Of a stretch of 32,832 bases of DNA, positions 605 through 22,121 are shown one piece after another (position 1 is the first letter of the stretch; each line of letters starts with the position of its first letter). The stretch comes from an uncultured Clostridia bacterium (lineage in GTDB: Bacteria; Bacillota; Clostridia; Oscillospirales; Acutalibacteraceae): the NCBI GenBank assembly GCA_944376655.1, contig CALWDJ010000027.1:1-32832 (forward strand), in the 5' to 3' direction. The translations under genes and the position numbers were made by a program. The notes beneath the pieces were generated by a model. It worked only from the letters and a program-made list of their open reading frames with translations. It was not told the DNA's origin and ran no database searches.

Positions 605-958
605 ATGAAAAAATTTTGGGGAATTTGCAATAATGATAATTATAGTGTCGGTTGTAATGGTGCAAGTGTTTATGTTTATGACAAAAACGGCAAAGAACTG
701 AAAGTATTTAAAGATGCACCTTATACTTATCGAGCAAAATTTAAACCAAATAATAATATATTAGTTGCTAAATCAACAGCTGGTTTTTTACTTATATATG
801 ATTTAGAAAATTCAAATAAAACTACACCAAATACAAAAACGGTTCCGCTTTCTGCGGAAAGCGGCAGGGGCGCCGCTCCTCGACCCCGCCGCCTTTTGAA
901 AAAGGCGGGCGAAAACTTTTTTCTGTTTTTTTGCTGCTTGTCTTTTTTAACAGACTGA
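605..958 (+). pseudogene. Beta-propeller (WD40-like) protein, 3'-truncated by a structured repeat
   Basis: The ATG at 605 has an AGGTG ribosome site at about 593-597. The first ~75 residues (SVYVYDKNGKELKVF, then AKFKPNNNILVAKSTAGFLLIYDLEN) look like one or two blades of a WD40-type beta-propeller, so the complete gene was probably several hundred residues. At about 843 the sequence changes abruptly from AT-rich to GC-rich, and the rest of the reading frame translates a dispersed hairpin repeat into a meaningless basic tail. I read this as a gene cut by repeat insertion or rearrangement, not a functional 117-aa protein. Function unknown. Confidence 0.55.
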
Positions 959-995
959 ACCGGCGCACAGTAAACTGTACTGTGCACCGGTTTTT
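843..995 (+). repeat. Multi-hairpin repeat, copy C (5'-shortened)
   Basis: This copy contains the stem CCGCTTTC-TGCG-GAAAGCGG (845-864), a weaker GC-rich stem, then CCGCCTTTTGAAAAAGGCGG (889-908) followed by GCGAAAACTTTT. A terminator-type hairpin begins about 50 nt further on (958-995). It matches copies at 20125-20352 (minus orientation) and 21898-22121 (plus). The 845-864 stem sequence differs from the other copies on both arms while the TGCG loop is kept. The two upstream hairpins of the other copies are missing here. Confidence 0.8.
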
Positions 996-996
996 G
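958..996 (+). terminator. Rho-independent terminator
   Basis: AACCGGCGCACAGT (958-971), a 7-nt loop and ACTGTGCACCGGTT (979-992) pair at 13 of 14 positions and run into a T tract at 991-995. It ends the truncated reading frame on the plus strand and occupies the place of the final hairpin seen in the other repeat copies. Confidence 0.75.
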
Positions 997-1020
997 TATA
1001 AACTGCAAAAACGCAGAAAT

Positions 1021-1218
1021 TTAAAACTCAAAATCGAGAATTTTTATGCCGTCTTCCTCTATTTCAACGGCTTTGCGGTACTCGCCAAATCCCGTTTTAC
1101 GGATTTCCTCGTATGCCCGGCAGACGCCGTAAATTCCGAAAAAAATACAAAGCAGTATCACAGATGAAAGGTATAAGGATTTAAAAAAAACAACGGTTTT
1201 TCTTTTTATTTTTATCAG
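1021..1218 (-). CDS. Small single-pass membrane protein, start uncertain
   Basis: Reading leftward, a frame follows spoIIP and ends at the stop 1021-1023. It encodes a basic start (IKIKRK), one hydrophobic helix (about SLYLSSVILLCIFFGIYGV) and a charged tail ending GIKILDFEF, 60-65 residues in all. The hydrophobic helix and even codon use argue for a real gene. There is no ATG: an in-frame stop lies at 1237-1239, and the only start-like codons after it are CTG (1216-1218) and ATA codons, with AAAAAAGGA nearby. It sits just downstream of gpr-spoIIP, where B. subtilis has the membrane gene yqxA, but I see no sequence reason to equate them. Confidence 0.45.
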   Translation of the reverse strand: MIKIKRKTVVFFKSLYLSSVILLCIFFGIYGVCRAYEEIRKTGFGEYRKAVEIEEDGIKILDFEF

Positions 1219-1261
1219 TCCTTTTTTATTTATGTATTATTTTTTCCGCTTTCTCAAATCT

Positions 1262-2353
1262 TTATACAAGCGTGTTGAAAAGGCTCGCGAGCGCGTTCCC
1301 CACAAGCTCGGCAGAGTAATGTACCTCGTCAAGGGAATTAGCGTCGGTGCCGAATTCGATAAGCAGCGAGCCCTTTGTAAGGCTCTCGTTGTACTTTCCC
1401 GTAGTAAGGCTTATCGGACGCGCCAGCGTAGGATATTTTACCTCCAGCGTCTGCTGGAGCCTTACCGCCAGCTTGAGATTCTCCTGCCAGTCCGGAAAAC
1501 CGCTCTCGCCCTCGCTCTGGGAGCCCATCACAAGCATTACCTGCGCCGCCTTTTTGCCGTTTATCTCGGTCACGAGCTTTACCTTGTCGCTCTCTCCTGA
1601 GCTTACGGCGTCACGGTGTAGGTCGAGCACCACTTTTATGCTCGGATATTTCTTGAGATAGCTGTTTATGGTCTGCGCCGCCCTCGTGTAGCTTCCGCTG
1701 TACTGCGGATAGTCGTGCTCGGTGGTGTCGTGCAGGGTCTTTATGCCGGCGGCGTTGAGCTTCTCCGCCACAATATCTCCCACGCTTACCATATTTTTGG
1801 TTTTATCCCGTGAACGGGAGGTAAACGCGTCGGTATAATATTCGCTGTCGTCCTCCATAAAGGTCTCGGTGGTGTGGGTGTGCATTATAAGCACCTGCGG
1901 CTCGTCGTTTTTCTTTAATTTAAAGCTCAGTGAGGACGAAAGCAGGCTTTTTATATCTATTTTGTGCGACGTTCCGTTTTTGAGATATACATTGCTGTAT
2001 GAAAGTCCGGCGTTATAGGGCGAGATGTACTGACTAAGTATTTTGCCCTTTACATTGCCCGAAACCGAAGCGGTGGCGGACGAGGAGCCGCTTTCCGCTT
2101 TTTCCTCCGGATTATCCTTGCTCTGTGCGGCTTCCGGCGAGCTTTGGGAATCTCCGGTTTCCGTATTTTCAGATGAAATTTCCTCTTTTTCCTCAGGCAA
2201 AATTTCAGTATCCTGACTGTGAGGCGCCGTTTCAAAAATATCCGTTCCGGTGCCCGCAGCCTCTGTCAGCTTTCCGAAAACATTATACGCTATTACCGCG
2301 ATACAGGCGGTAAAAACGCACGCCAGCCGCGCCATTGCCGAATATCTGCCCAT
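1262..2353 (-). CDS. spoIIP: Stage II sporulation protein P
   Basis: 363 residues from the ATG at 2353, chosen over an ATG 21 nt upstream because GGGAGG lies 8 nt before it. The protein has an N-terminal membrane anchor (ARLACVFTACIAVIAYNVF), a Ser/Glu-rich linker and a C-terminal amidase/endopeptidase domain with LIMHTHTTE, VLDLHRDAV and LLIEFGTDANSLDE, whose His and Glu residues fit the zinc site of SpoIIP. SpoIIP works with SpoIID and SpoIIM in the mother cell, degrading septal peptidoglycan so that the mother-cell membrane can engulf the forespore. It follows gpr by 45 nt on the same strand, the same order as in Bacillus. Confidence 0.93.
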   Translation of the reverse strand: MGRYSAMARLACVFTACIAVIAYNVFGKLTEAAGTGTDIFETAPHSQDTEILPEEKEEISSENTETGDSQSSPEAAQSKDNPEEKAESGSSSATASVSGNVKGKILSQYISPYNAGLSYSNVYLKNGTSHKIDIKSLLSSSLSFKLKKNDEPQVLIMHTHTTETFMEDDSEYYTDAFTSRSRDKTKNMVSVGDIVAEKLNAAGIKTLHDTTEHDYPQYSGSYTRAAQTINSYLKKYPSIKVVLDLHRDAVSSGESDKVKLVTEINGKKAAQVMLVMGSQSEGESGFPDWQENLKLAVRLQQTLEVKYPTLARPISLTTGKYNESLTKGSLLIEFGTDANSLDEVHYSAELVGNALASLFNTLV

Positions 2354-2398
2354 TATTACCGCCTCCCATACCATTATTCTATGCCTTCGGCTCTCGCT

Positions 2399-3247
2399 TT
2401 ATACCAGCCCTGAGAGAATATCCGGCTCTATTCCGGGCTGTAAAAAGGTGTTCATTGCGCGCGCTAAAATTCCGCTTATCCTGTCTGTGAGCATATCGAC
2501 GTCTTTCGGGGTTACGAACATTCCTTCAGAGGAACGGCTTTTTGAGCCTGTCAGCTCCTCGGCAAGAATTTCCGCTCCCACAACCGTAGGAACGCCGACG
2601 GCTATTACAGGTACTGACAGAGTGGCGGAGCTTAACTCTTTCCGCCTGTTTTTTACTCCTGAACCCGGAGATATTCCGGTGTCGCATATCTGTACCGTGG
2701 TAAAAAGCCTTTCGGTGCTTCTCGCGGCCAAAGCGTCTATTGCTATGACGGCGGCAGGCTTTACGGTATCCGCCGCCGCCTTTATAAGCTCGCTTGCCTC
2801 TATTCCGGTCTGACCTAAAACTCCGGGCGACAGCACCGAAACGCTCCTTATGCCGTCAAGTCCGAGTTCCTTTGCAAACTGTCCGTTTATATGGCGGGTG
2901 GCGAGCAATCTTCCGGCGGTGAGAGGTCCTACTGCATCGGGCGTAATGTCGGTATTCCCGAGTCCCGCAACAAGAAGCGGCGCTTTTTTGTCCGGAAAAA
3001 GTCCGGCGAGCGTTTTCGCAAGGCATTTTTCAAGCTCTTTACAGTCCGCTATGCGGGTTACCGGCGGAAATTCTACTGTTATATACCTACCCATTGCCTT
3101 TCCGAGCGCCTTTTCCCCTTCTTCTGACACTATTTCTATTTTTGTAATGCTTACATCTCCGCTTCCGCTTTTCTCGATCAGAACCCCGTCCTCGGGATAT
3201 TTTTCCGATTCCGTAAGCTCAAGCGCCAGGTCTGTTCTTCCGGTCAT
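2399..3247 (-). CDS. gpr: Spore germination protease GPR
   Basis: 282 residues. The ATG at 3247 has GGAAAGG about 10 nt upstream. GPR cuts small acid-soluble spore proteins (SASP) at the onset of germination, releasing amino acids and freeing the DNA. The N-terminus MTGRTDLALE contains the SASP-like sequence at which the zymogen processes itself. The core has LLVAGLGNTDITPDAVGPL, SVLSPGVLGQTGIEA, VIAIDALAAR and GVGVPTV-type segments typical of this A25 peptidase family, including conserved Asp residues. It is slightly shorter than Bacillus GPR (~370). It diverges from dnaA across 131 bp, an unusual neighbour for the origin. Confidence 0.93.
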   Translation of the reverse strand: MTGRTDLALELTESEKYPEDGVLIEKSGSGDVSITKIEIVSEEGEKALGKAMGRYITVEFPPVTRIADCKELEKCLAKTLAGLFPDKKAPLLVAGLGNTDITPDAVGPLTAGRLLATRHINGQFAKELGLDGIRSVSVLSPGVLGQTGIEASELIKAAADTVKPAAVIAIDALAARSTERLFTTVQICDTGISPGSGVKNRRKELSSATLSVPVIAVGVPTVVGAEILAEELTGSKSRSSEGMFVTPKDVDMLTDRISGILARAMNTFLQPGIEPDILSGLV

Positions 3248-3301
3248 CGCAGTTTTCCTTTCCGTTTTTTTTAAATTATCCCCTTTTTTGTGCTAAAAAA
3301 G

Positions 3302-3330
3302 TTGAAAAAGTTCAGAAATTATGATATACT
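3302..3330 (+). promoter_or_regulatory. dnaA promoter (sigma-A type)
   Basis: TTGAAA (3302-3307), 17-bp spacer and TATACT (3325-3330). It is followed by an AT-only run at about 3339-3364 and the ribosome site AAGGTGG (3365-3371) before the dnaA ATG. The AT run may help the region melt, though the main duplex-unwinding region is more likely downstream of dnaA. Confidence 0.8.
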
Positions 3331-3378
3331 GTATTAGATTATTATATATATATTATTATATATTAAGGTGGTAAAAAA

Positions 3379-4719
3379 ATGCCGATAGGCTCTATTGAGG
3401 ACATCTGGGCAGCCGTCTGCGAGGAGTGCAAAAAAACCATCTCCGAGGTCGCTTTCAACTGCTTTTTAAAAGACCTGAAGCCGGTTTCTCTTGACGGCGG
3501 CGAGTTTATTCTCTCCATAAACAACGATTATATGCGCGGTGTTGTGGAGCAGAATTACACGCAGGTGCTTGAAAACGCTATCAAGACCGTGATGGGTATT
3601 GACATAAAGGTCAAAATAATTTTTGAGGACGATGAGGAAAAAATTTTAAAAGCGGAGCAGTTCAGCGACGGGCTTACGTTTGAGGATTTTTTTACCTTTT
3701 CAAATTTTGTGGTCGGCTCCACAAACCGCTTTGCCCACGCGGCGTCGCTCGCGGTGGCCAACAACAACACGATCACATACAACCCGCTTGTTATATACGG
3801 ACCTCCCGGAGTGGGAAAAACACATCTGCTGCTTGCTATAAAGAATCAGATGAAAAAGAATTTTCCGTTCAAGAAGATTGAGTATATAAGAAGCGAGGAT
3901 TTTACAAATCAGCTTATAAAGGCACTTCAGGACGGTAAGCTGGGGCTCGGCTCGATTGAGGACTTCCGCAGCAAGTACAGAGGGGTTGACGTGCTGCTCA
4001 TAGACGATATTCAGTTTATCGCCGGCAAGGAGCAGACACAGGAGGAGTTTTTCAATACCTTCAACACTCTTTATCAGAACAATAAGCAGATAGTCGTAAC
4101 CCTCGACCGTCCGCCGAGAGAGATAAAGACGCTTGACGACCGCATAAGGGGACGCTTTGAGAGCGGTCTTTTCGCGGATATCACACTGCCCGACTTTGAG
4201 ACAAGAGTGGGGATAATAAAGAAAAAATCCGAAAAGCTGCATGTTGAGATAGACGAGAGCCTTGTGTTTTACATTGCCGAGCATATAAAGGGAAACACAA
4301 GACAGCTTGAGGGCGTGGTAAAAAAGGTTCAGGCATATATGTCGATACAGAACAAGATACCGACCCTCGCCGTGATACAGGGCTTTATAAGGGACATTAT
4401 AAACGACGCCCAGCCTGAGCCTGTAAAGATTGAAAAGATAATTGCCGAGGTGGCTAAAACCTACAACGTATCCGAAAGCGACATTCTCTCAAACCGCCGC
4501 ACCTCCTCGCTCGCGCTTGCCCGTCAGGTAGCCATGTATATAGCGCGTGAGACCACAAACCTTTCCTACAAGGCGATAGGAGAGAGCTTCGGCAAGGATC
4601 ACACTACGGTGCTTTACAACGTAAACCACATTGAGAATTTTCTCAAGGACAAGCCGTATGAGCGCGAGCTTGTAAAGGACATAATCAAGAATCTTAACGC
4701 AGACGCGTCGGATTACTGA
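3379..4719 (+). CDS. dnaA: Chromosomal replication initiator DnaA
   Basis: 446 residues from ATG 3379. Domain I covers about residues 1-80 and domain II is very short (~85-98). The AAA+ domain has Walker A GPPGVGKT (141-148), Walker B LLIDDIQF and the arginine-containing DRPPREIKTLDDRIRGRF. The C-terminal domain IV carries the DnaA signature GKDHTTVLYNVNHIE that reads DnaA boxes. ATP-DnaA binds the box cluster just downstream, opens the origin and loads the helicase. Linker segments are more variable than in Bacillus (RGRFESGLF where RSRFEWGL is common). dnaN follows after the origin region. Confidence 0.98.
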   Translation: MPIGSIEDIWAAVCEECKKTISEVAFNCFLKDLKPVSLDGGEFILSINNDYMRGVVEQNYTQVLENAIKTVMGIDIKVKIIFEDDEEKILKAEQFSDGLTFEDFFTFSNFVVGSTNRFAHAASLAVANNNTITYNPLVIYGPPGVGKTHLLLAIKNQMKKNFPFKKIEYIRSEDFTNQLIKALQDGKLGLGSIEDFRSKYRGVDVLLIDDIQFIAGKEQTQEEFFNTFNTLYQNNKQIVVTLDRPPREIKTLDDRIRGRFESGLFADITLPDFETRVGIIKKKSEKLHVEIDESLVFYIAEHIKGNTRQLEGVVKKVQAYMSIQNKIPTLAVIQGFIRDIINDAQPEPVKIEKIIAEVAKTYNVSESDILSNRRTSSLALARQVAMYIARETTNLSYKAIGESFGKDHTTVLYNVNHIENFLKDKPYERELVKDIIKNLNADASDY

Positions 4720-4933
4720 ACAAAAAGTTATCCGCATTATCCACTTTAATTAACAGTGAAGTTATCAAACCGGCTGTTGATAACCGAAAACCGGAAAATT
4801 TCTGAACTTTTTATCCAATCCGGTTTCAACACGCAAAATCCTTTTATGGCGCGTGATAAAGCGAGTTATCCACCGTTTCAACACCCTATATTATGACTGT
4901 TATTTTTATATTTTGTTTTTAGGAGGAAAAATT
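4720..4933 (+). other. oriC: oriC: DnaA-box cluster and AT-rich unwinding region
   Basis: The dnaA-dnaN gap holds many 9-mers close to TTATCCACA: TTATCCGCA (4728-4736), TTATCCACT (4737-4745, directly abutting), TTATCAAAC (4762-4770), TTATCAACA on the minus strand (4775-4783), TTATCCAAT (4811-4819), a weak minus-strand site near 4852-4859 and TTATCCACC (4866-4874). An AT-rich stretch from about 4885 to 4920 (TATATTATGAC to TTTTTATATTTTG) is the likely unwinding element. No box is a perfect consensus match. The second half also serves as the dnaN leader, ending in AGGAGG at 4921-4926. Confidence 0.9.
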
Positions 4934-6034
4934 ATGATTTTTTCAGTTGAGCGTTCAGAGCTGCTTGAGGCGGTTTCACGTCTTCAGCGAGTGGTAGGCT
5001 CAAAAACCTCCGTTCCCGTGCTTGAGGGAATACTTCTATCGGCGGAGCAGGGAAAGCTGACCCTTATAGCCTACAATCTCGAAATGGGAATGAAAAAGGA
5101 AATATACGCGAGGTGCGAGGAAGCGGGAGACATTGTATTAAGCGCCCGTCTGCTGGCAGATATTCTGCGCCGTATGAACGGCATACAGGTGGAAATATCA
5201 GCTGACGAGAGGCTTAACTGCTCTATACGCTGCGGCGAGGCCACCTTTGACATTATGGGCATGGCGACGGCCGATTTTCCCGAAATGCCCTCTGTGGGAG
5301 CAGGAAAAAACATTATGATTAACGGCGGCGTGCTTTCACACATGGTAAAGGGAACGATTTTTGCTGCGGCGCAGACCGAGGGCGTAAAACCGATACTTAC
5401 AGGCATTAACGTAACCATTGAGGACGGCGTTATGCAGTTTGTCGCGATTGACGGTTACCGTCTCGCAATAAGGAAGCACAGGGTTGACATAAACGATAAT
5501 TTTTCCTTTATAATTTCAGGCAGAGCGGTAGGAGAGGCGGTAAAGCTGATTGACGATGAGAACGAGGACGTTGAGATAAACGTGAGCGAGCGTCTTATCA
5601 GCTTCAATATAAACGGCTACTCCTTTATTTCAAGACTGCTTGAGGGCGAGTTCGTAAACTACAAAAAGACCATTCCGACCGAGCATAAGCAGCGTGTCGT
5701 AGTAAACACAAGAGAGCTTACCGAAACGATAGAGCGCGTCTCATTGCTTATAAGCGAGTCATTTTCGACCCCGATAAGGTGTTATTTCAACGAACTTAAC
5801 GTGGTATTCACCTGCGCTACCTCGGTAGGACGCGCGACTGAAACCTTCAACACAAAATTGGAGGGCGAGAATTTCGAGATAGGGCTTAACAGCCGCTACC
5901 TGCTTGAGGCTCTGCGCGCGGTTGAGGAGGAGCAGATACAAATACTTTTCAACGGCTCGGGCGCCGGAGTTGTGATAACCGCGCTTGACGGCGACGATTT
6001 CAAATATATGATAATGCCTATGAGGTTGAGATAA
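4934..6034 (+). CDS. dnaN: DNA polymerase III beta sliding clamp
   Basis: 366 residues starting at ATG 4934 (MIFSVERSELLEAVSRLQRVV), with AGGAGG 8 nt upstream. A longer in-frame start at 4853 would translate DnaA boxes and is rejected. Three repeated clamp domains are present; recognisable parts are SVPVLEGILLSA, FVAIDGYRLAIRK and a C-terminal MIMPMRLR. Two copies form a ring on DNA that tethers the polymerase and recruits repair and replication proteins. The stop overlaps the ATG of yaaA by one base (TAATG), so the two are translationally coupled. Confidence 0.98.
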   Translation: MIFSVERSELLEAVSRLQRVVGSKTSVPVLEGILLSAEQGKLTLIAYNLEMGMKKEIYARCEEAGDIVLSARLLADILRRMNGIQVEISADERLNCSIRCGEATFDIMGMATADFPEMPSVGAGKNIMINGGVLSHMVKGTIFAAAQTEGVKPILTGINVTIEDGVMQFVAIDGYRLAIRKHRVDINDNFSFIISGRAVGEAVKLIDDENEDVEINVSERLISFNINGYSFISRLLEGEFVNYKKTIPTEHKQRVVVNTRELTETIERVSLLISESFSTPIRCYFNELNVVFTCATSVGRATETFNTKLEGENFEIGLNSRYLLEALRAVEEEQIQILFNGSGAGVVITALDGDDFKYMIMPMRLR

Positions 6035-6246
6035 TGGAATATAAACAGCTCTCTATAAAAGAGGAGTTTATAAGGCTTGACAGCGCTATGAAGCTGGCTG
6101 GTCTGGTTTCGACCGGCGGCCATGCGAAAACGGTAATACAAAACGGCGAGGTTACGGTAAACGGTGAGGTCTGCACGGCAAGAGGAAAAAAGCTCCGCAG
6201 GGGAGATATGTCGGTGTATGACGGTCAGGGATTTGTTATAGTATGA
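6034..6246 (+). CDS. yaaA: S4-domain RNA-binding protein YaaA
   Basis: 70 residues, essentially a single S4 domain (IRLDSAMKLAGLVSTGGHAKTVIQNGEVTVNGE, then RGKKLRRGD). The position between dnaN and recF is the classic Firmicutes arrangement of yaaA/rlbA. S4 domains bind structured RNA; a role in ribosome assembly has been proposed for this family. It overlaps dnaN by one base and recF by four (GTATGATT region), giving a tight dnaN-yaaA-recF-remB cluster. Confidence 0.9.
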   Translation: MEYKQLSIKEEFIRLDSAMKLAGLVSTGGHAKTVIQNGEVTVNGEVCTARGKKLRRGDMSVYDGQGFVIV

Positions 6247-7304
6247 TTATAAAGGCTTTGACCTGCCGGAATTTCCGCAACATTGAGGAGCTTGAAGCCG
6301 GAAGCTTTGACGAAATGAACGTCATATGCGGCGAAAACGCCCAGGGAAAGACAAATATGCTTGAGAGCATATGGCTTTTTACCGGAATGAAGAGCTTTCG
6401 CGGCTCAAGGGATTCGGAGCTTGTTAAAAAAGACCGTGAAAAGGCTGTAAACGGGCTTGAGTTTGTTTCGGCCGGAACCGAAGAAAGCGCGCGGCTTGAG
6501 ATAAGCGAGCGCAGAACCGCTTTTCTGAACGGCAAGAAGCTGAAGGCCGCGTCTGAGCTGGCAGAGCATTTCAGCGCTGTGGTTTTCTCGCCCGGCGACC
6601 TTTCTTTAATAAAAGACGGTCCGGCGGTAAGGCGGCGGTTTCTCGATACGGCGATAGGCCAGCTTTATCCGGCATACATCGGGATACTCAAAAAGTACAC
6701 AAGAGCGGTTATACAGCGCAACAGCGTGATAAAGAATTACAGATATGACCGCACGCTTGAAATTATGCTTGACTCCTTTGAGGACGAGATAGCGGCGGAA
6801 GCTGTAAAGATAGTAAAATTCAGGGCAAGGTACATTTCCCTTTTAAAAGAAATACTGCCGGAAATTTACGGCGGTATCTCATCGGGAAAGGAAAGCCTTG
6901 AGACCTTTTATATGCCGTCAGCCGCTGATGATGTAAAGGAAAGGCTGAAGGCGGCGAGAACAGCCGATATGCTTACCGGTTCAACCTCGGCAGGACCGCA
7001 CAGGGATGATATTGATTTCAAGATAAACGGAATGTCGGCAAGAAGCTACGGCTCGCAGGGGCAGAAAAGGAGCGTCGCGCTTGCCTTAAAGCTGGCGGAA
7101 GCGGAGATAATTAAAAATATTTCGGGGGAATACCCGGTGTTTCTGCTCGATGATGTTATGAGCGAGCTTGACCCCGACAGGCAGAGCTACATTTTAAACC
7201 GGGTAAAGGGAATACAGACCTTTATAACCTGCTGTGACCCGTCAAACACGGCGAGTCTTGAAAAGGGCAGAATAATCTATATAGAAAACGGACGGATAAG
7301 ATAA
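6243..7304 (+). CDS. recF: DNA replication and repair protein RecF
   Basis: 353 residues. SMC-like ATPase: N-terminal ICGENAQGKTNMLESIW is the Walker A region, GSQGQKRSVALALKLAEA is the ABC-type signature and VFLLDDVMSELDPDR is Walker B with the D-loop. RecF, with RecO and RecR, loads RecA on gapped single-stranded DNA. The start ATG at 6243 overlaps the yaaA stop by 4 nt and its stop overlaps the next gene by one base, so expression probably follows dnaN. Length is normal for the family (~360). Confidence 0.97.
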   Translation: MIIKALTCRNFRNIEELEAGSFDEMNVICGENAQGKTNMLESIWLFTGMKSFRGSRDSELVKKDREKAVNGLEFVSAGTEESARLEISERRTAFLNGKKLKAASELAEHFSAVVFSPGDLSLIKDGPAVRRRFLDTAIGQLYPAYIGILKKYTRAVIQRNSVIKNYRYDRTLEIMLDSFEDEIAAEAVKIVKFRARYISLLKEILPEIYGGISSGKESLETFYMPSAADDVKERLKAARTADMLTGSTSAGPHRDDIDFKINGMSARSYGSQGQKRSVALALKLAEAEIIKNISGEYPVFLLDDVMSELDPDRQSYILNRVKGIQTFITCCDPSNTASLEKGRIIYIENGRIR

Positions 7305-7567: not shown

Positions 7568-7658
7568 TTACAGAATATTACCCGATTTATTTTCGCTTTA
7601 AAAAGCGGAAAATACGGATAAAATAATTTTTTTCAGATTGAAAGGAATGTTGGTTCAA

Positions 7659-13597: not shown

Positions 13598-13613
13598 CGA
13601 AAGGGGTAAAATT

Positions 13614-14279: not shown

Positions 14280-14283
14280 ATTG

Positions 14284-14312
14284 AAGCGGTCTTCTGGACC
14301 GCTTTGTTTTTA
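14284..14312 (+). terminator. Rho-independent terminator
   Basis: Perfect 8-bp stem AAGCGGTC (14284-14291)/GACCGCTT (14297-14304) with loop TTCTG and a T-rich tail TGTTTTTAT. It closes the gyrA/CPBP/membrane-protein transcript. Confidence 0.85.
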
Positions 14313-14336
14313 TAAAAAATTATTCGGAGAAGCGAT

Positions 14337-14777: not shown

Positions 14778-14880
14778 AACGGCGCCGAAAACCGCCCTTT
14801 TTCAGCCTTTAAGAATTTCCTTTTTAAGAAAGGGGGTTGACGGCAGTTTTTCTGAAGCTGTCAGAAGCAGGCGTTTTTTA

Positions 14881-16404: not shown

Positions 16405-16456
16405 TTTCAACAACTCCCCACAGTAATTATTATGTCGCGGCATACCGCTTAATGAG

Positions 16457-16485
16457 TTGAAAAAAACGGGAAAAGATAATATAAT
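16457..16485 (+). promoter_or_regulatory. rarA promoter (sigma-A type)
   Basis: TTGAAA (16457-16462), 17-bp spacer, perfect TATAAT (16480-16485). It lies 32 bp before the rarA start and on the opposite strand from the flippase gene. Confidence 0.85.
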
Positions 16486-16517
16486 AAACTAAAGATAATG
16501 TGTACGGCGGTGTTTTT

Positions 16518-17783
16518 ATGTTGTCACCATTGGCGGACAGGTTAAGACCTGAAAAAATAGAGGACGTGGCGGGTCAGCGCCATTTGCTGGCGGAAGGCAG
16601 GGTTTTGAGAAAAATAATTGACAGCGGAAAGCTGCCGAACCTTATTTTCTACGGGCCGTCGGGCGTGGGCAAAACCACGGTCGCGAATATTATAGCCAGA
16701 AACTGCGGCAAAAAGCTGCATTACCTGAACGCCACCACCGCCTCGACCGCCGATATAAAGGAAATAATAGGCTCGATAGGCGGCTTCGGCTCGGAAAACG
16801 GCATACTGCTCTATCTTGACGAAATACAGTATTTCAACAAAAAGCAGCAGCAGATACTGCTTTCATACATAGAAACAGGGGATATAACCCTCATAGCGTC
16901 CACCACCGAAAACCCCTATTTTTATGTATATAACGCGATTTTAAGCCGCTCGACCGTCTTTGAGTTCAAGGCGCTGACGCCCGAGGACGTTTTTTCGGCA
17001 GTAAAGCGGGCGGTAAGGATTGTCGAGAGCGAAAAAGGCGCAAAAATAAAGGTTTCGGACGAGACGCTGATGAAAATAAGCCGTGCCGCCGCCGGAGACG
17101 TGCGGAGAAGCCTTAATATGCTGGAGCTTTGCCTGCTTACGGGGGAAAGCGCCGACGGTATCGAGATAACCGACGGCGCGGCGGAGGAAATTCTGGCGGC
17201 GAACGCTGTAAGGTATGACCGGGAGGGCGACGAGCATTACGATATAATTTCTGCATATCAGAAGTCGATGCGCGGTTCTGACCCGGACGCGGCGGTTTAT
17301 TATCTCGGAAGACTGCTTGCCGCCGGCGACCTGCCGAGCGCCTGCCGGCGGCTTATGGTCTGCGCCTGTGAGGACGTGGGGCTTGCCTATCCGCAGATAA
17401 TTCCGATTGTAAAGGCGGCGGTGGATATAGCGCTCCAGGTGGGACTGCCCGAGGCGAGGCTTCCGCTTGCTGACGCGGTTATTCTGGTGGCGACCTCGCC
17501 AAAGTCAAATTCAGCGCACGACGCTATAAACGCCGCCATGGCTGATATTGAAAAGGGTATCGGCGGAAGTATTCCCAGACAGCTTCAGAACAAGCATTTT
17601 GACGGGGAAGACGCCGAGGTAAAGGGACAGAACTATAAATATCCGCACGATTACCCTAATCATTATGTAAACCAGCAGTATCTGCCGGACGCTATTAAGG
17701 ATAAGCATTATTACCTTTACGGTCCTAATAAAACCGAGCAAAAATATAAGGAATACTGGGACAGGATAAAAAATCAGAAATAG
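16518..17783 (+). CDS. rarA: Replication-associated recombination protein RarA (MgsA)
   Basis: 421 residues from ATG 16518 (MLSPLADRLRPEKIEDVAGQRHLL). A GTG 18 nt upstream is possible but lacks a ribosome site. AAA+ ATPase related to clamp-loader subunits: Walker A GPSGVGKTT, Walker B YLDEIQYF, sensor region ASTTENPYF and a C-terminal tetramerisation domain with CACEDVGLAYPQI and the end motif HDYPNHYVNQQYLP. RarA acts at stalled or gapped replication forks. Length matches the family (~420-440). The PH-domain gene pair follows closely and may share the transcript. Confidence 0.94.
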   Translation: MLSPLADRLRPEKIEDVAGQRHLLAEGRVLRKIIDSGKLPNLIFYGPSGVGKTTVANIIARNCGKKLHYLNATTASTADIKEIIGSIGGFGSENGILLYLDEIQYFNKKQQQILLSYIETGDITLIASTTENPYFYVYNAILSRSTVFEFKALTPEDVFSAVKRAVRIVESEKGAKIKVSDETLMKISRAAAGDVRRSLNMLELCLLTGESADGIEITDGAAEEILAANAVRYDREGDEHYDIISAYQKSMRGSDPDAAVYYLGRLLAAGDLPSACRRLMVCACEDVGLAYPQIIPIVKAAVDIALQVGLPEARLPLADAVILVATSPKSNSAHDAINAAMADIEKGIGGSIPRQLQNKHFDGEDAEVKGQNYKYPHDYPNHYVNQQYLPDAIKDKHYYLYGPNKTEQKYKEYWDRIKNQK

Positions 17784-17809
17784 TATTATGTAAACCGAGG
17801 ATGAAGACT

Positions 17810-18241
17810 GTGAAAAAGGAAAAGCTGCCCGAAAAAACCGTGCTTTTATGGCAGATAAGACTGACGGCGATTGCCGTCCTGCCGGTTGCGCTTTTTGCGG
17901 CGCTCTGTTTCCTTACGCTCTGGATGCTGCTTGCGGCGGCGGTTGCGGCGGCGGTTTTCTCGGTCCTTATTTTCTGGTATATCCCCGCCCTTCTGCACAG
18001 CTACGAGATATTTTTTCCGTCGGGCGCCATTGTTATAAGGTGCGGCGTTTTTCTTAAAACCACTCATATTATGCCATTTTCGCGTATGGTCTGCGCTGAC
18101 ACTCTGGCTACTCCATTAGCGCGAAAAATGGGACTGTCCGCGCTGACCTTGAAAGCGGCGAGAAGCCGTATAATCGTCCCCGAGCTTGACGAAAAGTACG
18201 TGCGGCAGTTTATCGATTACATCACAAGGGAGGACGGTTGA
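17810..18241 (+). CDS. Bacterial PH-domain membrane protein (YdbS-like)
   Basis: About 143 residues from GTG 17810, chosen because GAGG (17797-17800) lies 9 nt before it; an ATG at 17801 abuts that site. The protein has two N-terminal membrane helices (IAVLPVALFAALCFLTLWMLLAAAVAAAVFSVLIFWYIPALL, split in two), then one bacterial PH-like domain (YEIFFPSGAIVIRCGVFLKTTHIMPFSRMV). YdbS/YdbT-type proteins work as pairs; some confer resistance to certain bacteriocins, but the general role is unknown. Its stop overlaps the next start (TGATG), indicating coupled translation of the pair. Confidence 0.8.
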   Translation: MKKEKLPEKTVLLWQIRLTAIAVLPVALFAALCFLTLWMLLAAAVAAAVFSVLIFWYIPALLHSYEIFFPSGAIVIRCGVFLKTTHIMPFSRMVCADTLATPLARKMGLSALTLKAARSRIIVPELDEKYVRQFIDYITREDG

Positions 18242-19671
18242 TGAAAAAAGAGTTCCGCGCCCATCCTCTTATGATAGTGAGCCTTATGCGGCCGTTTCTG
18301 TTTGTGCTTGTACTGCCGGTATTAAAGGGAGTTGTCCAGTATATCGTGAGCCGCGAGGTCACCGGTGTTCTGACGCTTGAGATAATTCTTTTCGCCGCGA
18401 TAGTGTTTTTCGCAGCTGTCCGCTGCGCCGCCTTCCGGCTTGTATGCGGTGAAAGGGCGGTAACGGTAAAAAGCGGAGTGATTTTCCGCACATCTTCGGT
18501 GATGAGCATTTCAAAGCTGTCCTCGGTGCAGACGGTGCAGAATCCGGCGGACGCGGTTCTCGGGGCGGTCACCTACCGCATAAACACCGAGGCGGGCAGA
18601 CGCGGAAAAGCGGATTTCGAGTTCAAGCTGAGCCGTAAGGACAGCGCCGAGGTATCAAAACGGCTTTACGGCGCCGAGAATCCGACAGCGGTGCGCTTTT
18701 CGGTGATAAAGGTCGCGATGATGGCGGCCACTACCTCGTCGGCCGTGACCGGAATGATAGTCGCGGTGCCGGTTATAAACCGTGCCGGAAAGCTGCTGGG
18801 TGTGGCGCTTGACCGTATGCTTTTCGACGAGATAAACGAGGTTTCCGGAGAGATTCAATCCTATTTTCCGCCTGTTGTCAACACGATAAGCCTGATTTTT
18901 CTGCTTGCCTATGCAGTGGCGTTTGTTTATTCGTTTATAAAGTATATAAATTTCAGTCTGTTTCTCGAGCGTGACAAGCTGGAGGTGCGCTCCGGCTTTT
19001 TCGTGCGTAGCCGAACCTCTTTTAAAAAAGAGTCGGTAAACGATGTGCTTATAGACCAGACGCCGCTTATGCGTATATTCAAGCGTTACGCTATGAAGGT
19101 CAGCGTGGGCGGCTACGGCGGCGCCAAGGGAGACGCGGCGGTCATAGTTCCGTCGGGCAGGCACGGCGAGATAAAGCGGCAATTTTCAATGTATTTTCCG
19201 TTTTTAGCGCCGGACGGCAGGCTTCTGCACCCTACGCGCGGCAGAAATTCTCGAGCACGATTTTTATATTTTCCTGCCGTGTATTTTTTGATTACCGCAG
19301 GAATATCGTTAGTTCTTGCACTGATTTTTCCCGATTTCGGCAGACTGATACTTTTTCTTATGGCTGTGGTCGAATGTGTGGTACTGTATTACGCGTATCT
19401 TTCTATATTTGAATACCGTTTCGGAAAGCTGAGTCTCGGAAAAAACGTATACGCGCGCAGTGTAAAGATTTTCAACACCTGCGAGCTTTACTGTCCTGCT
19501 GACAGAGTGGGAGAAATAAAGCTGGTACGCACGCCGCCCGATATCCGCCGCGGCACCTGCAAGGCGCGGGTCACGGTGCGTTCTGAGGGGGCGGACAGTA
19601 TACGGGTACGCAATCTTGATTATGAAGAGTTAAAAAGGGAAATTGCGGAACATTACGGAATAGAGGTATAA
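18241..19671 (+). CDS. Bacterial PH-domain membrane protein (YdbT-like)
   Basis: 476 residues from ATG 18241, overlapping the previous stop by one base. Hydrophobic segments and PH-like modules alternate: two helices, a module with CGERAVTVKSGVIFRTSSVMSISKLSSVQTVQN, a helix pair around TISLIFLLAYAVAFVYSFI, a second module (RDKLEVRSGFFVRSRTSF), another helix pair and a third module (YRFGKLSLGKNVYARSVKIF). This three-module layout fits the larger partner of YdbS-type pairs. Membrane-located; the ligand is unknown. No terminator is evident in the short gap before the parS site. Confidence 0.82.
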   Translation: MKKEFRAHPLMIVSLMRPFLFVLVLPVLKGVVQYIVSREVTGVLTLEIILFAAIVFFAAVRCAAFRLVCGERAVTVKSGVIFRTSSVMSISKLSSVQTVQNPADAVLGAVTYRINTEAGRRGKADFEFKLSRKDSAEVSKRLYGAENPTAVRFSVIKVAMMAATTSSAVTGMIVAVPVINRAGKLLGVALDRMLFDEINEVSGEIQSYFPPVVNTISLIFLLAYAVAFVYSFIKYINFSLFLERDKLEVRSGFFVRSRTSFKKESVNDVLIDQTPLMRIFKRYAMKVSVGGYGGAKGDAAVIVPSGRHGEIKRQFSMYFPFLAPDGRLLHPTRGRNSRARFLYFPAVYFLITAGISLVLALIFPDFGRLILFLMAVVECVVLYYAYLSIFEYRFGKLSLGKNVYARSVKIFNTCELYCPADRVGEIKLVRTPPDIRRGTCKARVTVRSEGADSIRVRNLDYEELKREIAEHYGIEV

Positions 19672-19705
19672 AGTTTAGAAAAACGGAAATCCTTTTAATA
19701 AAAAA

Positions 19706-19721
19706 TGTTTCACGTGAAACA
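19706..19721. other. parS: parS centromere site 1
   Basis: TGTTTCACGTGAAACA, a perfect 16-bp palindrome matching the Firmicutes parS consensus bound by ParB/Spo0J. It lies 19 bp before the spoVAE start codon and about 15 kb from oriC. Confidence 0.95.
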
Positions 19722-19740
19722 TTAAAAGCGGGGTTTTCGT

Positions 19741-20109
19741 ATGGAAATTTTTTTGAACTGTCTTTACGCTTTTCTGGTCGGCGGGTTTATCTGCCTTGTC
19801 GGACAGATTCTGATTGATTACACGAGGCTTACTCCGGCGAGGATTTTGGTTTCGTATGTTGTCGCCGGCGTGATTCTTACGGCGATAGGCGTGTATGAGC
19901 CGCTGGTCGAATTTGCCGGCGCGGGCGCTACCGTACCGCTTACGGGATTTGGTTACAGCCTTGCGAACGGAGTTAAAGAAGCGGTCAGGGAATATGGCTT
20001 TATGGGAGCGCTGTGCGGCGGACTCACGGCGACGGCGGCAGGAATAGCGGCGGCGGTAGTGTCGGGTTATTTAATGGCACTTTTGTTCAGACCGGGGGAT
20101 AAAACTTAA
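19741..20109 (+). CDS. spoVAE: Stage V sporulation protein AE (SpoVAE/SpoVAEb family)
   Basis: 122 residues, a small membrane protein with the family signature GGFICLVGQILIDYTRLTPARILVSYVVAGVILTAIGVYEPL and GAGATVPLTGFGYSLANGV, split by hydrophobic helices. SpoVA proteins form the inner spore membrane channel that takes up dipicolinic acid in sporulation and releases it in germination. Normally spoVAC, spoVAD and spoVAE sit together; here spoVAE is alone, with parS directly upstream and a terminator directly downstream. GCGGGG is the probable ribosome site. The partner genes must lie elsewhere or be absent. Confidence 0.9.
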   Translation: MEIFLNCLYAFLVGGFICLVGQILIDYTRLTPARILVSYVVAGVILTAIGVYEPLVEFAGAGATVPLTGFGYSLANGVKEAVREYGFMGALCGGLTATAAGIAAAVVSGYLMALLFRPGDKT

Positions 20110-20124
20110 AATTGCTGAAATAAT

Positions 20125-20150
20125 AAAAGGGAGCAGAAAGCTCCCTTTTA
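20125..20150 (+). terminator. Terminator after spoVAE, also last hairpin of repeat copy A
   Basis: AAAAGGGAGC (20125-20134), loop AGAAA, GCTCCCTTTT (20140-20149): a perfect 10-bp stem with T tail, bidirectional. A near-copy (AAAGGGAGC-AGAAA-GCTCCCCTTTTT) stands at 20417-20442 on the far side of the repeat, both preceded by TGCTGAAA. Confidence 0.85.
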
Positions 20151-20352
20151 TACTGTCAAATAAGACATTCAGTAAAAAATATAATACAAAAAGTTTTCGC
20201 CCGCCTTTTTCAAAAGGCGGCGGGGTCAAGGGGCAGAGCCCTTGGCGCGTCCCGCAGGACGCGAAATCCTTTGCTTTCATAAAGATCAGGAAGGGAGACT
20301 AAACAGCCCGGTGGGCTGTTTAGTCGTGGGAAACCCTATCAAGGGGTTTCCC
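20125..20352 (-). repeat. Multi-hairpin repeat, copy A (minus orientation)
   Basis: Read on the minus strand, the order is: GGGAAACCC-type stem (20328-20352), 13-bp stem GACTAAACAGCCC/GGGCTGTTTAGTC with loop ACC (20297-20325), CGCGTCC-TGCG-GGACGCG (20246-20263), AAGGGC/GCCCCTT stem (20228-20243), CCGCCTTTTGAAAAAGGCGG (20201-20220), then about 50 nt and the terminator hairpin at 20125-20149. Same order and spacing as copy B at 21898-22121. The 331-bp gap 20110-20440 is filled by this element plus a GCGGC/GCCGC stem (20356-20372) and a second terminator; no gene is seen. Confidence 0.85.
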
Positions 20353-20416
20353 GATGCGGCGAAATAAGCCGCATAAGTGCTTCTTGTTATTTGATAACCG
20401 GTTTTTCGGTATGCTG

Positions 20417-20442
20417 AAAGGGAGCAGAAAGCTCCCCTTTTT
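20417..20442. terminator. Second terminator hairpin, convergent to the 81-aa gene
   Basis: AAAGGGAGC (20417-20425), loop AGAAA, GCTCCCCTTTTT (20431-20442). It abuts the stop codon of the minus-strand gene at 20441 and can stop transcription from both sides. It closely resembles the spoVAE terminator at 20125-20149. Confidence 0.65.
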
Positions 20443-20686
20443 AATTGGAAAAATCATATTCGTTTAAAGTGGGCAAGGTCTCGTAAGTTGCTACAATTTT
20501 TTCTATTTTTTCTAAACAGCTCTTATCGTCTGTACTTTCATCCTGAAGAATAGTTTTTATTTTTTCTAAAGCGAGGTAGGTTTTATTTTCTAAAAGTTTA
20601 TTATAATCAAATTCAATACCTTTAAAGGTTACTTCTAAATCGTTGTTAGAAAGTATTTTTAATAAGATTTCCTTATATAACTTCAT
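20441..20686 (-). CDS. Small uncharacterised protein (81 aa)
   Basis: 81 residues starting MKLYKEILLKILSNNDLEVTF; the ATG at 20686 has AGAGAGGTG about 7 nt upstream, better than an ATG 48 nt further up, which would start inside the promoter. The sequence is charged, helix-rich and without membrane segments; the part YLALEKIKTILQDES-DDKSCLEKIEKIV recalls a widespread small hypothetical family in gut Firmicutes and their mobile elements. Function unknown. It is divergent from an XRE regulator with an operator in its promoter, so it is probably that regulator's target. Composition is more AT-rich than the surroundings. Confidence 0.75.
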   Translation of the reverse strand: MKLYKEILLKILSNNDLEVTFKGIEFDYNKLLENKTYLALEKIKTILQDESTDDKSCLEKIEKIVATYETLPTLNEYDFSN

Positions 20687-20705
20687 TTTGCACACCTCTC
20701 TACAT

Positions 20706-20734
20706 ATTTTAACCTGATTAAGGTTAAAAGTCAA
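20706..20734 (-). promoter_or_regulatory. Promoter of the 81-aa gene with palindromic operator
   Basis: On the minus strand: TTGACT (20729-20734), 17-bp spacer, TAAAAT (20706-20711). The spacer holds the 15-bp palindrome AACCT-GATTA-AGGTT (20711-20725), a likely repressor site. For the divergent XRE gene a weaker TTAAAA-17-TATACT (20724-20752) overlaps it, so one bound protein could block both. Confidence 0.75.
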
Positions 20735-20775
20735 TACAAACTTAAGTATACTTTATAGTATTTATGGTGATAAAT

Positions 20776-20976
20776 ATGTATGAACGTATAAGGGCTTTGA
20801 GAGAGGACAGCGATTTGACCCAGACACAGGTTGCGGAATATCTCGGAATGTCACAGACAGGATATTCAAAATACGAGACCGGCGAAAACAGTATACCGGT
20901 TGATGTTGTTGTAAAACTTGCGGATTTTTATAAAACCACAACAGATTATTTGCTTGGCAGAACAGACAAAAGATAA
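20776..20976 (+). CDS. XRE-family transcriptional regulator
   Basis: 66 residues from ATG 20776 (MYERIRALREDSDLTQTQVAEYLG), with GGTG 5-8 nt upstream. A single Cro/CI-type helix-turn-helix: DLTQTQVAEYLGMSQTGYSKYETGENSIPVDVVVKLADFYKTTTDYLLG. It probably represses its own promoter and the divergent 81-aa gene. It is a close relative in layout of the XRE proteins at 26707-26922 and 28684-28905 (all end in DYLLGxTD/S). A hairpin GCGTGCCGA/TCGGTACGC at about 20982-21003 follows and may terminate it. Confidence 0.9.
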   Translation: MYERIRALREDSDLTQTQVAEYLGMSQTGYSKYETGENSIPVDVVVKLADFYKTTTDYLLGRTDKR

Positions 20977-21091
20977 AAAGAGCGTGCCGATTATCGGTAC
21001 GCTTATATTTTATAACAGTAAATTATTTATTGCGGAATACAATTAAAACATAGAAAACTATACCGGTCAAAACTGTTTGCGAGGTAAGAAT

Positions 21092-21343
21092 ATGGAACAA
21101 AAAATAAGAAGAGATTTAAATATGGGTGCAAACCTGCGTGCGCTTAGAGATAAGTCGGGACTGTCACAGGAAAAGCTGTGCGCCGAGCTTCAGAGCAGAG
21201 GCTGTGATATAGGCAGAACAACCTACGCTAAATATGAATCCGGCGAACTGAATATAAAAGCAAGTGTAATTGTAACTCTCAAAAAGATATATAATTGCTC
21301 TTACGATGATTTCTTTGCGGGATTAGAAGAAGAAATTAAGTAA
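21092..21343 (+). CDS. XRE-family transcriptional regulator
   Basis: 83 residues from ATG 21092 with GAGGT 7 nt upstream; a TTG 15 nt earlier is less likely. The N-terminal MEQKIRRDLNMGANLRALRD leads into a Cro/CI helix-turn-helix (GLSQEKLCAELQSRGCDIGRTTYAKYESGELNIKASVIVTLKKIYNCSYDDFF). It differs from the shorter XRE proteins here by the inserted QSRGCDIG loop. It lies just upstream of the deaminase gene, which has its own promoter, so control of that gene is possible but not shown. Confidence 0.88.
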   Translation: MEQKIRRDLNMGANLRALRDKSGLSQEKLCAELQSRGCDIGRTTYAKYESGELNIKASVIVTLKKIYNCSYDDFFAGLEEEIK

Positions 21344-21397
21344 TTCAGAGTGCCGCAAACCCTTCCTTTTATTGTTGCTCGGAAAAACAATCAAATA

Positions 21398-21426
21398 TTT
21401 ACATTTATGCGGTTGATATGTATAAT
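21398..21426 (+). promoter_or_regulatory. Promoter of the cytidine deaminase gene
   Basis: TTTACA (21398-21403), 17-bp spacer, perfect TATAAT (21421-21426), followed by AAAGGAG at 21439-21445 before the ATG 21454. Confidence 0.8.
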
Positions 21427-21453
21427 GAATCATAAGACAAAGGAGTTGTACAT

Positions 21454-21864
21454 ATGGAAAGATATAATCTGAACGATAAGGATTGTGAGCTTATTCGTGC
21501 CGCACTGGAAGTGCTTAAAGAAAACTTTGATGACGGAATATATAATCACACCGTAGGCTGTGCGGTTTTGTGCAGAAACGGAAAGGTTTTTAAAGGCGTA
21601 AATTGTGACGGAATTCACGGCTCGTGCGCTGAGTACATAACAATCGGAACAGCGATTTCAGCAGGTGAAAGAGATTTTGATACAATTGTCGCGGTTCACG
21701 AAAAAGCGCCTAATCAGGTCTTTTCGCCCTGCGGAAACTGCCGGCAGATGCTTTATGAATACTGCCCTGATATTATGGTTATAGTAAATGATGAAAAAGG
21801 CAATTTAATAAAAGTCAAAGCAAAAGATTTACTGCCGTTTGCGTGGGAACCGGTTGAATGTTGA
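21454..21864 (+). CDS. Cytidine deaminase-like protein (blasticidin-S deaminase type)
   Basis: 136 residues. Zinc-dependent nucleoside deaminase fold: C58-A-E60 (GSCAEYITIG) and P92-C93-G-N-C96 (SPCGNCRQML), with E60 as proton shuttle and three cysteines binding zinc. It would turn cytidine, deoxycytidine or a cytosine nucleoside analogue into the uridine form in the cytoplasm. The C-terminus (IMVIVNDEKGNLIKVKAKDLLP) is more like blasticidin-S deaminases and their relatives than like classical Cdd. Substrate therefore open: pyrimidine salvage or detoxification. It has a strong own promoter and lies in the islet flanked by inverted repeats. Confidence 0.82.
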   Translation: MERYNLNDKDCELIRAALEVLKENFDDGIYNHTVGCAVLCRNGKVFKGVNCDGIHGSCAEYITIGTAISAGERDFDTIVAVHEKAPNQVFSPCGNCRQMLYEYCPDIMVIVNDEKGNLIKVKAKDLLPFAWEPVEC

Positions 21865-21897
21865 TTGAAGAACAGCACAAACAAAGAGTCAGTTAAA

Positions 21898-22121
21898 GGG
21901 TCCCCCCCGACGAGGGTTTCCCCTAAAAACAGTCCACCGGACTGTTTTTTTTACCCCTTCCTGCGTTTTATAATGCAAAAGATTCCGCGTCCTGCGGGAC
22001 GCGTCAGGTGCTCCGCCCCTTGACCCCGCCGCCTTTTGAAAAAGGCGGGCGAAAACTTTTGTAAAAATTTTTTTAGATTTGTTTGACGTAATAATAGGGA
22101 GCGTTTCGCTCTCTTTTATTT
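21898..22121 (+). repeat. Multi-hairpin repeat, copy B (plus orientation)
   Basis: Order on the plus strand: degraded GGG...CCC arms (21898-21923), AAAAACAGTCC-ACC-GGACTGTTTTT (21925-21949), CGCGTCC-TGCG-GGACGCG (21986-22003), a GC-rich stem (about 22005-22021), CCGCCTTTTGAAAAAGGCGG (22029-22048), GCGAAAACTTTT, then 48 nt and a terminator hairpin AGGGAGC/GCTCTCT with T tail (22096-22121). The second hairpin changes C-G to T-A on both arms relative to copy A. It fills the 367-bp gap after the deaminase, up to the parA promoter; no gene is seen there. Confidence 0.85.

Follow-up and report, generated by a model that had tools for sequence, protein, structure and literature searches.

Results

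Repeat copies in the window

The window, by which is meant the whole 32,832-nucleotide stretch of Clostridia DNA that was analysed, contains three copies of a dispersed multi-hairpin repeat, at 843-957 (+), 20150-20416 (-) and 21898-22095 (+). These repeats are non-autonomous transposable elements of about 269 bp with ends CAGNCTGTCGAWAAA, here called MITE-A. An earlier note on this DNA had already recognised three dispersed copies, and they are indeed present, with corrected boundaries. Copy 2 comprises 267 bp on the minus strand between two copies of a terminator palindrome (no strand assigned), the left at 20126-20149 and the right, one base longer, at 20417-20441. From its 5' end it has a degenerate terminal inverted repeat (20401-20416), the hairpins S1 (20328-20352), S2 with an ACC loop (20299-20323), S3 with a TGCG loop (20246-20263), S4 (20228-20244) and S5 (CCGCC..GGCGG, 20201-20220), and a 3' terminal inverted repeat that is degenerate relative to the consensus (20150-20164). 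This copy had been thought to end at 20352, with a terminator-type hairpin as a module of the repeat; however, that hairpin belongs to the host, as the terminator targeted by each inserting copy; because in copy 2 it is a duplicated target found on both sides, the copy extends to 20416.

Copy 1, detected as a covariance model match on the plus strand, is truncated at its 5' end and lacks S1-S2; it retains S3 (845-864), S4 (865-882), S5 (889-908) and the 3' terminal repeat TTTTTTAACAGACTG (943-957), and adjoins a terminator-like host hairpin, its target, at 958-992 (+). A copy in the sister genome (L082) has the same truncation and similar downstream sequence. In copy 3 (+) the 5' end is missing, and the hairpins are S1 (21898-21922), S2 (21925-21949), S3 (21986-22003), S4 (22005-22022) and S5 (22029-22048), followed by the host terminator that was its target (22096-22116, +), which is also present in the sister genome. 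The own ends of the window copies are degenerate, and copies 1 and 3 retain a single flanking terminator. The covariance model gives E-values of 1.1e-44, 3.5e-41 and 7.5e-19 for the three copies, of which only copy 1 is an independent match, as copies 2 and 3 belong to the alignment of the model.

The shared parts are largely as first described. For the stem with the TGCG loop, two copies have CGCGTCC/GGACGCG and the remaining one has CCGCTTTC/GAAAGCGG, and CCGCCTTTTGAAAAAGGCGG and GCGAAAACTTTT are common to all three; the ACC-loop stem is limited to copies 2 and 3, between which the reported swap of T-A to C-G is seen.

Ends, target and target duplication

The consensus ends CAGNCTGTCGAWAAA are found in both MITE-A and MITE-B (231/339 bp), which has the same insertion habit. 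Each of the size classes 231, 269 and 339 bp is multi-copy, short and without a transposase gene. The insertion target is the palindrome of an intrinsic terminator, the whole hairpin of which is duplicated (22-32 bp). Exact CAGNCTGTCGANAAA sites number 22 in the own genome and 27 in the sister genome; with one mismatch allowed the counts are 39 and 50, compared to 21 and 15 for a reversed-pattern control.

In the DNA fetched from both species, 22 end-bounded copies have a duplicated palindrome, which is direct in 19 (15 of them exact) and loop-inverted in three; the latter are not produced by simple gap repair. Two of the sites occur in each of the two species, so that these copies represent 20 independent insertions. 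When copies with identical interiors are merged (L137-L139 drop out), the duplicated palindrome is found in 19/38 end pairs, and in 19/28 within the three size classes, the other nine having no matching palindrome duplication. A swapped-flank control, whose set includes orthologous pairs, gave 5 palindrome matches in 1,406.

An empty site with a single hairpin was found in the sister genome for 7 of 12 insertions tested, these being 12 of 13 prepared sites, with L007 left out because it is shared with the sister. Both flanks are present at six of the seven; at L112 only the left flank and the hairpin are well matched. Additional to these, a MITE-A insertion of the sister (G023:C10:50537) has its empty counterpart in the window, the terminator hairpin at 20981-21003 (+); the BLAST pieces overlap over 20980-21004, so that the sister carries this stretch twice. 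It is clear from the IS1182-type ends, the terminator targets, the duplicated target and the empty sites that the suggestion of a mobile non-autonomous element was correct.

Autonomous relatives

Full IS1182-family elements of 1,511 bp (L301) and 1,510 bp (L302) are present in related genera. Their reading frames, of 470 and 472 amino acids, score 398 and 396 bits as transposases (cut-off 270), their ends CAGTCTGTCGAATAAC/CAGTCTGTCGAAAAAG closely match CAGNCTGTCGAWAAA at both ends, and the palindromes duplicated at their flanks measure 32 and 31 bp. In the sister genome, IS ends of the CAGNCTGTCGAWAAA type occur at six contig ends, all six adjoining a palindrome, and the own genome has decayed IS1182 copies only, one internally deleted; an intact IS1182 transposase was not found in either of these genomes, both of which are fragmented assemblies. 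The link of the MITEs to IS1182 consists of the 15-bp ends together with the target habit. Among 36 loci with an IS1182 match (14 above cut-off) palindromic duplication was seen in three, including L296, which has other ends, and several further matching loci also carry different ends.

The hairpin array in other Clostridia

A covariance model built from the own genus finds full-length matches to the S1-S5 array in other gut Clostridia, so that further copies, on whose absence the first reading could have foundered, do exist in relatives. Of 64 loci searched with the model, 62 matched, with E-values down to 4e-33. All of these loci had been chosen for their S5 motif, and some overlap; 53 were picked by eye for visible hairpins from at least 80 motif loci, and 11 were array-pair loci. 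Strict-motif array copies reach 129 in one genome of the order, and the cultured relative Anaerotruncus massiliensis carries 7 copies of the motif. The palindromes form mosaics in which either orientation occurs, outward-facing pairs are frequent and the foot CGAAAACTTTT is conserved.

In other Clostridia, the array was flanked by a palindromic duplication at 2 of 69 usable matches, both in the tandem array of L201, compared to 2 of 345 random places. IS1182-type ends lay beside the array in 3/85 cases compared to 1/850 in the control, and are therefore mostly a trait of the present lineage. At four array-pair sites compared between G258 and its relative G259, one had a longer array with a mostly inverted-orientation match, one had no S1-S5 core but carried other palindromes, and the flanks of the other two were split between contigs; none of the four showed a duplication signature or a boundary of the array itself. 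Searches of the open-access literature by motif strings and by topic returned no description of the array. We tentatively suggest, as an idea somewhat short of probable, that Clostridia share a hitherto undescribed class of mobile mosaics of palindromes in which hairpins are the units of exchange, the arms being rewritten in step at the DNA level and the loops and foot CGAAAACTTTT conserved, and that in this lineage IS1182-type ends have captured such a mosaic into an element that enters terminators and restores them by duplication.

Covariation of the stems

The claim that pairing is kept while the arms change is strongly supported, both in distant relatives and within the genus, and substitutions keep the stems far more often than they break them. 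In the alignment of distant relatives (A2; 78 loci given, identical rows counted once), 28 of 35 pairs changed on both sides and 97.6% of cells are paired, a percentage that leans towards structure because A2 was fitted to the model; slid controls gave 38-54%. Within the genus (A1; 16 copies, truncated copies omitted), four of five covariation measures lay above every shuffle, the exception being the number of further pair types, whose value was reached by 286 of 500 shuffles. In an apex-based test of 90 copies, in which the S3, S2 and S4 apices were present in 38, 35 and 56 respectively, the pairs not above shuffles were 5, 6 and 8 of S3, 2, 4, 5 and 6 of S2, and 1, 3, 6 and 7 of S4.

These paired changes could be mainly point mutations selected singly for structure, and the 466 double-changed cells in the distant relatives, with as many as four Watson-Crick types at a single pair, would fit such a history. 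However, one-sided intermediates are rare in the same alignment. Furthermore, when one insertion present in both species is aligned, 100/106 columns agree over S1-S3 and only 37/60 over S4-S5 and the tail; at least one arm change in the genus is therefore a block exchange of S4-S5 and not stepwise compensation. Point mutation as the main source is thus unlikely.

Alternatively, selection could act on the fold of a structured RNA encoded by the array, either a small RNA or a module at 3' ends, and the copies would then be RNA genes that have been duplicated. The pervasive covariation, the strong predicted fold of copy 2 (z = -9.3) and the position of the window copies at the 3' ends of genes are all in keeping with this, but the z-score with DNA energies is nearly as extreme (-8.6), the element ends and duplications indicate DNA transposition, and the array has no Rfam match in the window, where SSU rRNA was the sole match in a search with the Rfam 15 covariance models. 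Moreover, among 2,664 array cells G-T (28) is hardly commoner than A-C (20); the tRNA stems of the fetched loci have G-T in 78 of 1,066 pairs, making G-T about sevenfold rarer in the array. This rarity, near the A-C level, favours constraint or copying at the DNA level over RNA, and of the proposed selection on RNA or single-stranded DNA structure the RNA part has weak evidence when set against the tRNA stems. We regard a structured RNA as very unlikely. Strong covariation in bacterial repeats does not, then, necessarily mean RNA, and the count of G-T against A-C is a cheap test, usable on other repeat families too, that separates DNA-level palindromes from RNA folds.

Discussion

The window copies are, very probably, MITEs mobilised in trans by an IS1182-family DDE transposase, with the array as cargo that is presumably kept complementary at the DNA level. 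The transposase would recognise the CAGNCTGTCGAWAAA ends and, as its target, the intrinsic-terminator palindrome by its shape. The palindrome may be extruded as a hairpin or cruciform, and the 3' ends of the element would be joined to the two stem-loops at their 5' feet; gap repair could then copy the hairpin onto both sides, which would leave a terminator-like hairpin at the end of each flank and make the insertion near harmless. The S1-S5 array would be internal cargo originating from the wider Clostridial family of hairpin mosaics. Complementarity of its arms may be kept at the DNA level by block exchange of hairpins between copies, as seen once, and, judging from the base-pair statistics, probably also by template-switch repair or selection for DNA hairpins.

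The presumed autonomous partner belongs to the transposase family of IS1272 and TnSha1 of staphylococci, which likewise have inverted-repeat ends and enter inverted repeats, frequently terminator hairpins. In the available parts of the published accounts, their target is an inverted repeat without sequence consensus, and the hairpin is replaced or deleted without duplication (PMC5678879, PMC4923244), whereas here it is kept and duplicated. Those parts contain no MITE of the terminator-duplicating kind (PMC5678879, PMC4923244). Duplication of the whole stem-loop is an outcome only drawn there as a possible route (pathway b, legend of Fig. 13, PMC5678879). The present elements provide natural and repeated cases of it, with the empty sites as proof, and show that an element can occupy terminators and yet leave a terminator-like hairpin on either side.

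BOX, RUP and SPRITE of Streptococcus pneumoniae are described, in the part of the report available, as small, modular, structured MITE-like repeats near gene ends, SPRITE resembling a terminator (PMC3049150). The array elements share these traits, but the pneumococcal repeats have other ends and in that text no reported palindrome duplication (PMC3049150), a separation made by description and not by sequence.

BIME/REP, too, consist of palindromic units that alternate in orientation within a mosaic. A REP/BIME-like family moved by a RAYT (Y1 HUH) transposase acting on hairpins would account for the mosaic in both orientations, the outward-facing pairs and the conserved foot, and Y1_Tnp (PF01797) has two matches in the own genome (G000) and one in the array-rich G260. 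These were two of seven genomes searched; no match was found in the draft of the sister (G023), and of the five further genomes with arrays, also drafts, four likewise gave no match, among them those with 64 and 109 copies. The stem sequences here, unlike those of BIME/REP, change wholesale while the loops remain constant. The window family, furthermore, has two-ended inverted repeats of IS1182 type and target duplication, which Y1 elements are not known to make. The REP-like reading raised in the earlier note is therefore disfavoured and appears highly improbable, despite the two Y1 matches in the own genome.

Least probable of all, and rejected, is that copies 2 and 3 are the ends of a composite transposon carrying the HTH genes and cytidine deaminase between them: they do form an outward-facing inverted pair, with 103-nt arms that are 87% complementary, but each adjoins its own, different terminator, and in the sister genome the minus-strand copy lies at another terminator (20981-21003 of the window) and copy 3 is shared.

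Repeat copies in the window

The window is one complete contig of a 1.99 Mb host genome in 55 contigs, and its genes include the sporulation genes SpoIIP and SpoVAC/SpoVAEB as well as ParA/ParB type genes. These genes, together with the origin of related repeats in named records, suggest that the host is a spore former of the Clostridia living in the gut. All three dispersed repeats described in an earlier note are present; a covariance model trained on 16 copies from this genus, window copies 2 and 3 among them, recovers the three with E values of 1.1e-44, 3.5e-41 and 7.5e-19. The hairpins follow the order S1 (..GGGTTTCCC), S2 (ACC loop), a linker, S3 (TGCG loop), S4, S5 (arms CCGCC/GGCGG or CAAACC/GGTTTG) and CGAAAACTTTT, and form the interior of a non-autonomous element of about 269 bp, MITE-A. 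Copy 2 (20150-20416, minus strand) is flanked by two palindrome copies, AAAGGGAGCAGAAAGCTCCCTTTT at 20126-20149 and a near-copy of it at 20417-20441. Copy 1 (843-957) is without S1-S2 and adjoins a hairpin at 958-992; a MITE-A copy in the sister-species genome, G023, is shortened in the same way (L082). Copy 3 (21898-22095), whose left end is gone, adjoins a terminator at 22096-22116. Because the copies' boundaries adjoin host terminators or hairpins, the 48-51 nt and terminator-type hairpin formerly counted as repeat parts are reassigned: the “spacer” is the 3' end of the element and the hairpin is the host's. A cytidine deaminase gene (21344-21876), between an HTH gene and copy 3, is missing at that place in G023.

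Element ends and duplicated terminators

Reading outward from complete copies in the source genome and G023 gave CAGNCTGTCGAWAAA and its inverse as the MITE-A boundaries. The exact pattern occurs 22 times in the source genome and 27 times in G023; with one mismatch allowed the counts rise to 39 and 50, compared with 21 and 15 when the pattern is reversed. MITE-B, another element of 231 or 339 bp, has the same ends around an interior unlike that of MITE-A; it is found at L111, L116, L118, L134 and other loci of both genomes, with exact terminator duplications.

Just outside the element ends stands a palindrome, often identical on both sides. In the fetched DNA it is duplicated at 22 copies. At 19 the duplicates are direct repeats, 22-32 bp long and exact in 15 cases; at the other three, L004 and the orthologues L007 and L080, the loop is inverted. 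The loop-inverted flank copies match as reverse complement at 28/28 and 24/25 positions, and simple gap repair does not account for them. Among the 38 end pairs lying 200-380 bp apart in fetched DNA, 19 had a duplicated flank, and all 19 belong to the 28 in three size classes (9 of 14 at ~231 bp, 6 of 9 at ~269 bp and 4 of 5 at ~339 bp). When flanks were swapped between elements as a control, which includes orthologous pairs, 5 of 1,406 matched.

Some repeat match was found in 35 of the 61 genomes of the genus, mostly to S2 alone. This hairpin, AAAAACAGTCCnCCGGACTGTTTTT, also occurs by itself, and most matches outside the source genome and G023 are confined to that part of the query. Among the sampled relatives G023 has the most copies; 12 source-genome insertions, rejoined without the element, were sought in it. 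For six (L110, L006, L116, L118, L155 and L137, L006 being MITE-A) an empty site aligned over both flanks, with a single terminator and no element; for a seventh, L112, the match was good over the left flank and hairpin. The L138 insertion is common to G023, where both flanks lie 231 bp apart, and L140 is probably shared too, judging by its right flank, which adjoins the same end at G023:C46:4964. L134 matched by its right flank only, and L004 and L139 had no match in this search. The interval 20110-20766 is wholly missing from G023, and therefore copy 2 is without a clean empty site there; 20980-21004 occurs twice in that genome, once on each side of a MITE-A.

By their ends, duplicated terminators and empty sites, the repeats are IS1182-type MITEs whose insertion duplicates the target terminator, which bears out the suggestion of a mobile non-autonomous element. 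An origin as REP sequences moved by a Y1 (RAYT) transposase, for which the source genome offers two Y1 matches, is very improbable. Those matches, of IS200/RAYT type, are L390 and L392 on contigs C12 and C50.

Likely mover and probable mechanism

The IS1182 transposase model NF033551 matches in 49 of 200 genomes of the family (10 above cut-off) and in 10 of 61 of the genus (3 above cut-off). Element ends were inspected at 36 loci with such a match. L301 and L302 are complete elements of 1,511 and 1,510 bp, with longest ORFs of 470 and 472 aa, ends CAGTCTGTCGAATAAC and CAGTCTGTCGAAAAAG, and exact palindrome copies of 32 and 31 bp as flanks. L296 differs in its ends (CAGACTGCTGACAAA) and has a palindrome of 19 bp present twice, and at L299 the palindromes on the two sides differ; palindrome duplication was not found at the remaining loci of the 36, many of which are fragmentary or run off a contig end and some of which have other ends. 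In G023, IS ends of the L301/L302 type lie at six contig ends, every one beside a palindrome; two resemble L302 at ~96% over 109 bp and four at ~76% over 77 bp. The source genome holds one internally deleted IS1182-type copy and a 131-bp left end. A profile search found no intact IS1182 transposase copy in either genome, which fragmented assemblies may explain. The internally deleted element L154 (G000:C23:32350-32719) has a MITE-B joined to one end. A different transposase, present in several copies and a weak match to the IS1182 model, sits at or near source-genome contig ends (L092, L099, L101, L103-L105); by eye its ends, GGGCACTGAAAAAGG, look unlike.

PMC5678879 shows that IS1272 (IS1182 family) recognises its inverted-repeat targets by their structure and takes their place; the Fig. 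13 legend also sketches a second path, where joining at the 5' foot of each stem-loop leads to duplication of the entire stem-loop. TnSha1, as PMC4923244 reports, likewise has terminator hairpins among its targets, but deletes the stem-loop without duplication. The elements here instead duplicate the target, the outcome of the second path: with joining at both feet, the hairpin would be copied to each side of the element. Retention of a hairpin on each side may be why insertion is tolerated.

The hairpin array in other Clostridia

S5 and its tail are common in other gut Clostridia, at no fewer than 80 loci. In a search leaving S5 stem positions 1-3 free, with copies taken among the matches listed, these positions are complementary in 88, 88 and 84 copies out of 89 (shuffle maxima 58, 57 and 46) with 23 arm combinations; in S2, S3 and S4, where the apex could be found, pairing exceeds shuffles at several, not all, positions. 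Within the genus 97.7% of cells are paired, with double change in 12 of 35 pairs against 0-2 when slid. The genus-built model matches 62 of the 64 loci supplied, mostly full length, down to E 4e-33. Across 95 model matches (87 distinct) 97.6% of cells are paired, both sides have changed in 28 of 35 pairs and 466 cells are double-changed, compared with 38-54% and 13-56 in slid controls.

Among 295 genomes of the order, 13 carry the strict S5 motif (10 of 148 genera), one of them in 129 copies; the reversed pattern gave none among the matches listed in this order-wide search. A shorter form has 64, 109, 33, 10 and 7 copies in five genomes, and its reverse 0. In those Clostridia two arrays often lie together facing outward, with further palindromes separating them; 19 fetched pairs of this kind span 464-981 bp. 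IS1182-type ends or palindrome duplication are usually missing around the array. The MITE interior is thus a module of a wide palindrome-mosaic family, of which no description was found in the literature searched.

Probable DNA palindromes and block exchange of arms

A fold kept as RNA should tolerate G-U on the sense strand and not A-C. The 2,664 stem cells contain 28 G-T, 20 A-C and 44 other mismatches; in 50 tRNAs of the fetched loci, G-T makes up 78 of 1,066 pairs, a comparison that holds for the G-T rate only, as the finder output is without A-C. This near-symmetry, together with near-perfect pairing, points to DNA palindromes. Of the selection on RNA or single-stranded DNA structure formerly proposed, the pairing with changed arms stands and the RNA form is improbable.

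Template-switch repair of imperfect palindromes would produce paired changes without selection, and could be one source of those in the array; another, block exchange, is visible directly. At an insertion before a parA-like gene, common to both species, S1-S3 match in 100/106 columns, S4-S5 and the tail in 37/60 and the 3' spacer in 25/51, while terminator and flank match in 172/208 (a count that takes in an unaligned end); S4-S5 and the part beyond were therefore swapped as a block. Loops and the CGAAAACTTTT foot stay conserved while arms change. Loci L370-L388 (G258-G260) are long palindrome mosaics (464-981 bp) whose tails face outward and which hold additional hairpins; at one mosaic site the arrays of two close genomes match each other chiefly in opposite orientation.
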